A stretch of DNA of 43,830 nt from an uncultured Verrucomicrobia subdivision 3 bacterium (GTDB taxonomy: Bacteria; Verrucomicrobiota; Verrucomicrobiae; Limisphaerales; UBA11358): positions 1 through 43,830 of the forward strand of contig CAINDH010000066.1 in NCBI GenBank assembly GCA_903847285.1, in the 5' to 3' direction. The notes below the pieces were generated by a model, which was not told the DNA's origin, made no database searches, and was given only the letters and a program-made list of their open reading frames with translations. A program made the position numbers and the translations under genes. Numbering within the stretch: the stretch's first letter is position 1; each line of letters opens with the position of its first letter. Below, piece after piece: positions 30,726 through 33,020 of this stretch.

Positions 30726-33020
30726 TCAGTAGATCAGGTTCGCCCCGAAGTCTGGGGTTTTGCCTGCCAAAACTTCCTGCATCCATTGGTCGAGTTTCCC
30801 ATGATCATTTTTCCAGAACTTCCGGCAGCGCATGAAATGTTCCATCACGGCATCGCGCTCTCCTTTTTCCAACAAGTCGAGCGCGAGACTCATGTTCGGG
30901 CCAAAGCTGTTTATCTGCGGTGAACCATTGCTCTTGGCGGAAGCCGTTAGATATTTTTTGGCTTCACTAATTTTTCCATCGCGCACCGCGATTCGGCCGA
31001 GCACAAGATTGGCGTCTTGGACGGCGTTGCCATTATTCCAGTTGTTCGTGTATTTCGGTGTCAGCGCCATCAATTCCTCAGCGAAATTCCGCGCCTCTTC
31101 GATTTTACCAATTTCAAAACTACCTTTGGCGGCGCCGTCCAGCGCGTAAAAGTGTTGGTCTGCCGTCTTGGCTTTTTTTAAGTCGAGCAATGCGCGCTGG
31201 TATTGTTGTTGCCCGAAATTGCCGGAAGACAAGGTGAAGCCACCCAACGATTTCATCATGCCGTTCAGGTAGAACATCTGGATGGCGAGGAATCCGGCCA
31301 CGCCAATCGCGAAGGCTCGCTGCAACTGCGTAGACAAACTTTTTTTTACGGGTCGGATAAAAACTTCTGAATCGGGAATTTGTCCAAGGCTGCGCTCGGC
31401 AGCCGCCAAATTGCCCGTCCGAAATTGTTGCCATGCAGACATGACCGCGGCAGCCACGCGGGCTTCCAATGCGGATTTCTCCAACCGTGCGCCCGAACAT
31501 GTCCGATTAAGGATTTTCAAATCCGCCTCCGACAGTGTCGCCTGCGCCGTTCCATCGTCTCTTAAAGTGAGGCTGGAATTATTTTTGCGGAAGAATAGAT
31601 ATGCAAGATTCCACGTCAGGCTTTGGAAGGTCGCTTTTACCGGCGTGAGTTGGAGCACGAGGCCTTCGGCGGTGCGGCGAAAATCACTCGCCATCCAGCG
31701 CCCGCCCATAAAACGTGCGAATTGGAACAAGTCTGTTTCAGTCGGGCAAAAGTTATTTGGCTGGCTGAAAGAAAAATTCTGGCCGTCCGGAAAAATTTTT
31801 TCTGCTGCCCGCAGAAACAAATTGTAGTCCGTCCGCAGTGGGCGCTCCGCGAAGAAAATCATTTGTCCGATGACTTGAACGAGGGCGAAATATCCAATCC
31901 ACATGATCGGCATCCAGCCTTGGCTCACGGCCAAAAGAAACAGTGCCATCAATAGATTCCCAACGACCATGGCGACGAAGTATCGGTTCCAAATGACTCT
32001 CAGCCGCCGCGCCATCCGCAAGCCTACCAGCAGAAAAACGACTGACATGATGCTCAAGATGGTTCCAATCGGAATCGTTGAGCCGTGCGTGAACAGCCCT
32101 GTAAAGACGGATTGAAAAGACCAGATGCCTGCCATGAAACAAGCCATCACAAAAATGATCAGCCAGGTGTTTTGTTGGAAGAGCTTGGCGCGGAAACCAT
32201 CACGATCCCTGAAATTTGTTAAGTCCAGGCGCATGAATAGCCAGTTCAATACGAACGCTGGGAAAAAGAAAAAATTCACGGATGCGCCCGCGAGCCATTT
32301 CAAAAATCCTAATTTCGTTAGTGCGCCAGTAACTGCGGTTCCAACTCCACCGCCGGTCGCAGCCTTGGCGGATGAAGAGGCCAACACGCTCGCCATGATT
32401 GCCGGGACAAGTATTTTGCTCGGACGCAGTTTTGCCAGTGAGCTTTCGAGTTTTTCTTCCAGCCGTTCGCGCAGCGCGGCGCGGGCGCGGTGTAGGCGCA
32501 CGCGCAGGGCGGATTCGGAAATGCCCAAGGCGGTCGCCGACTCAGCTCCGCTTTTTCTTTCGAGATAAAACAGCACCAGACATTCGCGGTGCGCGGTGGG
32601 TAATTCAGCGAGCGTTTGGCGCAAGGTTTCGGGCGAATGGAGCAGGTCGATTTCCCCCACAGATTTTTCCGTTGCCGTTTCGGAGAAGTTTTCCAGCGCC
32701 CAACGTTCGCGTTTGTTGAGTTCGCGGCGATGGCGTAGGCCGAAGTTGATGGCGACACGGCGGGCAATGGTGGTAACCCAACCGGAAAATTTAGCGCCAT
32801 CGCCCAGCAGCCACAACCGACGGTAGGCGCGGATGAAGGCTTCTTGCGTGACTTCCTCCGCGAGCGCGGCATCGCCAAGACGGCTCCACGCCACGCCAAA
32901 GACGCGGCGCTGGTGGCGCTCGACGAGTTCGCGATAGCGCTCCGTATCGCCGCCGCGCACGGCAGTCACGGCGGATTGATCTTGCTGGTTGCTATCGGCC
33001 ATCTCGGTTGGTGTCGTCAT
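30726..33020 (-). CDS. ECF-type RNA polymerase sigma factor fused to a membrane and TPR-like region
   Basis: The 764-residue protein begins with a full sigma-70 family ECF core: region 2 at about 24-95 (FGVAWSRLGDAALAEEVTQE, FSGWVTTIARRVAINF) and region 4 at about 128-190 (LAELPTAHRECLVLFYLE, then the helix-turn-helix GISESALRVRLHRARAALRE). A linker (about 200-240) is followed by about five transmembrane helices (near 246-263, 286-306, 316-335, 347-366, 370-390). A soluble region of about 180 residues and another hydrophobic helix (about 568-587) come next, then TPR-like helices (about 600-725). It would bind RNA polymerase while held at the inner membrane. No anti-sigma gene is adjacent, so control may be built in. 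The gene upstream ends in a terminator. Confidence 0.88.
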   Translation of the reverse strand: MTTPTEMADSNQQDQSAVTAVRGGDTERYRELVERHQRRVFGVAWSRLGDAALAEEVTQEAFIRAYRRLWLLGDGAKFSGWVTTIARRVAINFGLRHRRELNKRERWALENFSETATEKSVGEIDLLHSPETLRQTLAELPTAHRECLVLFYLERKSGAESATALGISESALRVRLHRARAALRERLEEKLESSLAKLRPSKILVPAIMASVLASSSAKAATGGGVGTAVTGALTKLGFLKWLAGASVNFFFFPAFVLNWLFMRLDLTNFRDRDGFRAKLFQQNTWLIIFVMACFMAGIWSFQSVFTGLFTHGSTIPIGTILSIMSVVFLLVGLRMARRLRVIWNRYFVAMVVGNLLMALFLLAVSQGWMPIMWIGYFALVQVIGQMIFFAERPLRTDYNLFLRAAEKIFPDGQNFSFSQPNNFCPTETDLFQFARFMGGRWMASDFRRTAEGLVLQLTPVKATFQSLTWNLAYLFFRKNNSSLTLRDDGTAQATLSEADLKILNRTCSGARLEKSALEARVAAAVMSAWQQFRTGNLAAAERSLGQIPDSEVFIRPVKKSLSTQLQRAFAIGVAGFLAIQMFYLNGMMKSLGGFTLSSGNFGQQQYQRALLDLKKAKTADQHFYALDGAAKGSFEIGKIEEARNFAEELMALTPKYTNNWNNGNAVQDANLVLGRIAVRDGKISEAKKYLTASAKSNGSPQINSFGPNMSLALDLLEKGERDAVMEHFMRCRKFWKNDHGKLDQWMQEVLAGKTPDFGANLIY

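Follow-up and report, generated by a model that had tools for sequence, protein, structure and literature searches.

In a 43,830-nucleotide stretch of contig CAINDH010000066.1 (assembly GCA_903847285.1) from an uncultured Verrucomicrobia subdivision 3 bacterium, hereafter the window, a single gene joins an extracytoplasmic function (ECF) sigma factor to a polytopic membrane part, which we call the chassis, and to a C-terminal domain resembling tetratricopeptide repeats (TPR). We propose, with a probability of roughly two in three, that it encodes a one-polypeptide transmembrane sigma receptor under autogenous control. Relatives conserve the fusion, exchange parts on the same chassis, and carry an ECF-type promoter that is largely private to this gene. 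The original prediction, made from the letters of the window, had described a membrane-tethered ECF sigma factor with a built-in regulatory region; the private promoter, the domain swaps and the probable extracytoplasmic location of the TPR-like domain go beyond it. The gene is laid out as follows.

30726..33020, minus strand: fused ECF sigma/membrane receptor gene, 764 amino acids (single frame, Pfam, relatives)
32724..32927, minus strand: sigma region 2, residues 32-99 (Pfam PF04542, Sigma70_r2, E 7.7e-15, above cut-off)
32472..32624, minus strand: sigma region 4, residues 133-183 (Pfam PF08281, Sigma70_r4_2, E 1.6e-11, above cut-off)
32358..32414, minus strand: S1, a segment of weak hydrophobicity that resembles a signal peptide and has AKA|A at its end, residues 203-221 (hydropathy, alignment)
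31848..32315, minus strand: region of transmembrane helices TM1 to TM5, residues 236-391 (hydropathy and AlphaFold2 helices)
31323..31847, minus strand: alpha/beta domain, probably cytoplasmic, residues 392-566 (AlphaFold2 model)
31248..31322, minus strand: TM6, residues 567-591 (hydropathy and AlphaFold2 model)
30729..31226, minus strand: TPR-like C-terminal domain with an SFGPNM motif, probably extracytoplasmic, residues 599-764

As the original prediction had it, the gene is one uninterrupted frame of 764 codons (ATG at 33020, stop at 30726) and begins with a complete ECF core. The core scored 77.9 bits against TIGR02937 (NCBIfam cut-off, 42.9), ECF structures were the top matches among the sigma matches of a structure comparison, and sigma2 and sigma4 are the sole promoter-binding regions, as in ECF (group IV sigma70) factors. 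About five helices and a further one had been predicted, and hydropathy placed segments at 243-261, 287-305, 316-334, 348-366, 372-390 and 570-588, with a weak seventh at 203-221; the AlphaFold2 model has helices at 238-269, 276-311, 318-339, 346-366 and 374-388 in the TM1 to TM5 region. For the alpha/beta domain that follows, a structure search returned no clear match in the PDB. The predicted TPR-like repeats hold as a fold in the AlphaFold2 model but not as a Pfam assignment, the TPR models matching only below the cut-off (best E, 0.0014). By Pfam, the genes directly adjacent encode a DUF1015 protein and a cation-efflux transporter, followed by a methyltransferase; none of the adjacent genes encodes an anti-sigma factor, in line with the original prediction, and a neighboring anti-sigma gene was therefore rejected.

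To compare relatives for a conserved fusion, a check that the original prediction had proposed, we collected proteins by scoring with residues 195-764 alone. Sigma region 2 is borne by 106 of the 114 found, the query included, according to precomputed Pfam assignments. Moreover, sigma core and chassis share a single frame at 17 of the 18 loci that we read on public genome contigs and that have this sigma type or chassis (L001-L015, L068 and L093, of which L011 and L093 are truncated by a contig end and L013 has a frame ending at 641 amino acids). The eighteenth locus, L061, is a broken copy that keeps the promoter and the sigma start, has lost the chassis, and holds the toroid part (the alternative C-terminus described below) in a different frame. 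Most named records among the carriers are Verrucomicrobia, many of them subdivision 3 or Limisphaerales; P0024 is from a source named Pedosphaera parvula, a culturable relative, and the record of L015 is Sedimentisphaerales (Planctomycetota). On viral contigs, tblastn found no relative. All nine genomes behind fused loci gave a match, and each also has weaker additional ECF matches, which lie in frames longer than 450 amino acids in at least eight of the nine among the matches listed.

Because relatives hold sigma core and chassis in one frame, a frame error, or two genes joined by artefact, is ruled out for practical purposes. Its support would come from six of the eight proteins outside the count: P0003, P0021, P0049, P0051 and P0062 show no sigma domain in the precomputed assignments, and P0011 shows region 4 alone. 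However, the contigs of P0003, P0011 and P0049 measure 2406, 2623 and 2304 bases, which leaves scarcely enough room for the complete gene; the remaining two, P0068 and P0113, are not sigma proteins and match in the C-terminal domain alone. Genuinely split genes may occur at P0049, P0051 and P0062, which are membrane parts without sigma. In the DNA that we read, we met neither orthologs with sigma and membrane parts in separate genes nor a lack of transmembrane helices, the two outcomes named beforehand as contradicting the prediction. Mean identity to the query in our alignment was 0.85 for sigma2 plus sigma4, 0.77 for S1, 0.41 for TM1 to TM5, 0.49 for the middle domain, 0.43 for TM6 and 0.69 for the TPR-like domain, and residues 12-110 averaged 85%. 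The sigma core is thus the best-conserved part, as expected of a working sigma factor.

The chassis is modular, with both the sigma core and the C-terminal domain exchanged on it. We typed 88 proteins by local phmmer scores for the sigma core (s1 or s2) and for the C-terminus, which yielded 53 s1/TPR, 28 s1/toroid, 3 s1/other, 3 s2/TPR and 1 s2/other proteins. Here, toroid denotes similarity to the C-terminal part of P0065, which matches PF00432 below the cut-off (E 0.00047), together with precomputed PF00432 assignments in several others; the s2/other protein, L093, is truncated by a contig end and scored weakly as toroid (17.5 bits). We built a tree from the chassis only, using 331 query positions, and 40 of its 83 inner branches are well supported. 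It requires two changes for the s2 core, most simply explained by two separate gains, and, on well-supported branches and with the three s1/other rows excluded, at least four changes for each of the TPR and toroid labels. S1 is also of the s2 type in both s2-core members inspected (P0027 and L093), which indicates that S1 moves with sigma. The gene neighborhoods point the same way for the C-terminus. Downstream cation-efflux and methyltransferase genes occur at L002 and L004, which are of the TPR form, and at L012, which is of the toroid form; DUF1015 lies directly upstream at L002, L006 and L012. Thus, the toroid form occupies the same genomic place in at least one genome. At L008 the methyltransferase gene alone adjoins; among the 14 loci compared, the other 9 have none of these genes alongside.

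Two further features lie upstream of the gene:

33029..33055, minus strand: ECF-type promoter GTAACA-N15-TGTCTT, 0 mismatches, 8 nt from the -10 element to the ATG at 33020
33067..33096, minus strand: terminator-like hairpin of 13 pairs followed by CTTTTT, separating the promoter from the DUF1015 gene (-22.2 kcal/mol; z, -5.65)

Earlier classifications give AAC at -35, CGT at -10 and positive autoregulation as ECF hallmarks (cited passages of PMC8103513); this promoter has the AAC at -35, and its -10 element reads TGTC, not CGTC. With up to 2 mismatches allowed, the whole window contains 2 matches to the promoter against a shuffle mean of 1.29, the sole exact one being that at 33029-33055, and no sigma70-type promoter was found between 30600 and 33200, where 1.3 would be expected by chance. 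In relatives the upstream element reads TGTAACAATT...TGTCTT, with 16 nt separating TGTAAC and TGTCTT. Across the window and 18 loci, NGTAAC-N16-KGTCTT is present at 17 of 17 s1-core genes and at neither of two s2-core genes (L005 and L093), while the stricter GTAACA-N15-TGTCTT is present at 15 of the 17 (not L015 or L068). Counted from the first base of the promoter, an ATG begins after exactly 36 nt, 8 nt past the -10 element, in 14 of the 17 (L002, L015 and L061 differ), a spacing that suggests a leaderless transcript.

We then searched whole genomes for this promoter. Nine genomes contain 8 exact copies of GTAACA-N15-TGTCTT, each of them in front of this gene (a reversed control gave 2), and GTAACAAWTY-N11-13-GTCTT has 12 copies in 11 genomes, all 12 just upstream of it (control, 0); these 11 genomes were chosen as bearers of an s1-core gene, and in G035, G043 and G049 the gene start was extrapolated from the chassis match. 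Among 49 genomes of one family, of which 8 have the chassis gene, GTAACAATT-N12-TGTCTT gave 8 matches in 7 genomes (control, 0), and 7 of the 8 precede the chassis gene. Looser patterns gave no clear excess over control and no convincing regulon: TGTAACA-N13-16-TGTC had 30 matches, 6 self and 24 non-self, against 19 in the control. Allowing as many as 2 mismatches to TGTAACAATT-N12-TGTCTT, we obtained 19 matches in 9 genomes; the 9 with 0 or 1 mismatch were all self, and the 10 with two mismatches were all non-self (control, 4). The simplest reading of these sequence patterns is that the s1 sigma core would transcribe its own gene and have few or no other strong targets.

Three points weigh against this pairing of sigma and promoter. 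The pattern NGTAAC-N16-KGTCTT was shaped on sequences of relatives already seen, strict patterns overlook degenerate targets, and one promoter copy, in G050 (L105, on contig G050:C164), stands without a sigma gene, before only an ATG and a 16-codon frame. The L105 copy is either a remnant or another target. In its strongest form, the reading would make the receptor's own leaderless gene the one strong target of its ECF core genome-wide, which we regard as unlikely though worth stating. If true, its specificity would set the amount of a modular membrane or periplasmic protein rather than a regulon, and core plus S1 would form a transferable autoregulatory cassette. About as doubtful is a related alternative, in which the effector would be the membrane and TPR part, acting as scaffold or envelope protein, with the sigma core as no more than a built-in autoregulator of its level. 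The 12 self matches out of 12 under the strict pattern and the near-background count of the loosest one agree with it, but sigma is the best-conserved part of the protein, degenerate targets are invisible to strict patterns, and the non-self matches at two mismatches exceed their control.

The TPR-like domain is probably extracytoplasmic. We counted lysines and arginines (K/R) in 81 proteins, leaving out P0068 and P0113, which both lack the chassis. The means were 2.0 in the 20 residues between S1 and TM1, 6.2 in the 21 after TM1, 1.4 in the 9 between TM2 and TM3, 3.0 in the 11 between TM3 and TM4, 0.0 in the 5 between TM4 and TM5, 3.8 in the 15 before TM6 and 1.6 in the 15 after it. K/R were denser in the loops assigned inside in all 81 proteins, which fits sigma inside and the C-terminus outside. 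With sigma inside, this pattern requires the chain to cross the membrane an even number of times ahead of residue 264, through S1 plus TM1 or through neither, and it puts the C-terminus outside. A more independent reason to place the domain probably outside is that it also ends many proteins with hydrophobic N-termini and two M56/BlaR1-type sensors. At 53 loci the C-terminal domain occurs alone, and we read 52 of them (L062, truncated by a contig end, was excluded). A hydrophobic N-terminal segment is present in 39 of these 52 carriers, compared with 24% of 967 mechanically listed open reading frames, a rough background that includes spurious frames, and 5 of the 52 have a lipobox-like motif. 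Pfam, run on 6 of the 52, identified L029 and L064, which were picked because of their N-termini, as M56/BlaR1-type proteins with the TPR domain at the same end, and found TonB_C in L044.

Several observations tell against this topology. Inside and outside loops were assigned from the same charge pattern that was then counted, so that 81 of 81 measures consistency and is partly circular rather than independent proof; 13 of the 52 carriers show no clear hydrophobic N-terminus; and S1 and TM1 are both merely marginally hydrophobic. In addition, 14 s2-type paralogues have 36 K/R before and 20 after the transmembrane segment, and the C-terminal module of L094 is YfiR-like (E 4e-25, short of the curated threshold), both of which suggest that S1 is non-spanning there. 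As a module in its own right, the SFGPNM-motif TPR-like domain is widespread at the C-terminus of short, often signal-peptide-like proteins of many phyla (L016-L070, 52 loci read), and it matched no family of its own in Pfam (8 carriers) or NCBIfam (5 carriers).

In the receptor that we propose, the TPR-like domain, or the toroid in relatives, would sense a ligand or partner outside the inner membrane, and the sensed state would be relayed via TM6, the cytoplasmic alpha/beta domain and TM1 to TM5 to the cytoplasmic ECF core. Active sigma would then guide RNA polymerase to the GTAACAATT-N12-TGTCTT promoter, whose main and perhaps only strong site is the front of sigma's own gene, and the outcome would be an autogenous positive feedback loop, probably leaderless. 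Activation could be a conformational change or a cut between sigma and the membrane.

The original prediction of a one-protein system stands in that the protein is fused, membrane-embedded, conserved in relatives and without a neighboring anti-sigma gene; for how sigma would act, it had offered action at the membrane or release by proteolysis. The region where it had proposed protease sites, residues 200-265, holds the strongly conserved segment 203-221, whose A-x-A end we presume to be signal-peptidase-like. This segment fits a cleavable signal-like segment, and the evidence for its spanning the membrane conflicts. Tentatively, signal peptidase or another site-1 protease might cut after AKA and an intramembrane protease might free sigma to act off the membrane. 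In favor of this route are the 77% identity of S1 against 41% for the TM region, the presence in 74 of 81 aligned proteins of A-x-A or V-x-A at 218-220, the AxA-type motifs that also come after the core in further extended ECFs from the same genomes, and the travel of S1 with sigma in P0027 and L093. There are precedents in the cited passages of two sources, the cutting of anti-sigma RsiP by SipP at a signal-peptidase site (PMC8844934) and the processing of IutY by Prc and RseP (PMC8999054). However, S1 falls in a stretch of the AlphaFold2 model with confidence (pLDDT) under 50, the charge pattern of the s2-type paralogues argues for a non-spanning S1 there, and a conserved helix packed on sigma would have the same appearance. 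Held with the same reserve is a tethered mode, in which uncleaved sigma works at the membrane through a conformational change or dimerization of the chassis. The conserved and probably cytoplasmic chassis domain could gate sigma, the protein has no HExxH protease motif, and neither its 9 Pfam rows with E of at most 1 nor the best 25 of its 88 NCBIfam rows include an anti-sigma or zinc-finger (ZAS) domain; on the other hand, transcription by RNA polymerase would need to occur at the membrane.

Membrane-fused ECFs are already known. As far as the cited passages go, ECF48, ECF52 and ECF53 of Actinobacteria join an ECF core, one or more TM segments and further domains in one chain, with proteolytic release proposed (PMC5826349, PMC8999054); the ECF52 member SCO4117 has a zinc finger, a TM segment and a carbohydrate-binding module, and its putative own motif in one of its promoters (PMC5826349). 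Those groups carry a zinc finger, and their TM helices number one to two or vary, whereas our protein has some six to seven helices, two interchangeable C-terminal domains in its family, and no detected zinc finger or anti-sigma domain. IutY (ECF243, Pseudomonas putida) combines sigma and a membrane-bound anti-sigma in one chain and is freed proteolytically (cited passages of PMC8999054), unlike the query, in which the rows just given hold no such domain. According to the same passages, ECF42 (TPR extension) and ECF57 (WD40-like repeats) add a C-terminal protein-interaction extension to the core; the query has a TPR-like fold by modeling, with Pfam matches below the cut-off, which may correspond to the ECF42 extension. 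These passages mention no membrane part for ECF42, whereas here the domain follows TM6 and is probably outside. M56/BlaR1 sensors are likewise polytopic receptors with a C-terminal sensing domain, and L029 and L064 share the TPR domain; they hold a metalloprotease domain where the query has a sigma core. An M56-type protease receptor was ruled out for the query, which has no Peptidase_M56 row in Pfam and no HExxH.

Closer to home, other extended ECFs of the same genomes also line up a sigma core, an S1-like AxA segment, a TM segment and a C-terminal module; those of the s2 type mostly have one strong TM segment after S1, whereas the query has a polytopic chassis that includes a middle domain of its own. 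Among the extended ECFs L075-L094 are proteins with an s2 core, an S1 resembling ANSVQAAP, a TM segment and modules such as TIGR03435 (L083) and YfiR-like (L094); L075-L079 form a third, polytopic kind. Several features set the present family apart: its chassis is polytopic, no anti-sigma domain was detected, its parts are interchangeable and its promoter is private. It may already be numbered in the 2021 ECF classification, and the open-licence PMC literature yielded no paper recognizable as dealing with it. Elsewhere in the window, a long minus-strand frame at 22406-24481 has Ig-like and endonuclease/exonuclease/phosphatase matches in Pfam; the neighboring long frame at 24603-26039, also on the minus strand, has no Pfam match and by eye resembles it.

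The family would offer a compact one-protein route from an outside signal to RNA polymerase, in which sensor domains and sigma cores are exchanged on one chassis. Its private promoter predicts the transcription start and provides a ready reporter, so that the proposal is directly testable, and the sigma core with its nearly unique promoter could serve as an orthogonal gene switch. Since the order of sigma, S1, TM segment and C-terminal module recurs in these genomes, one solved case could open a little-studied class of signaling in Verrucomicrobiota.
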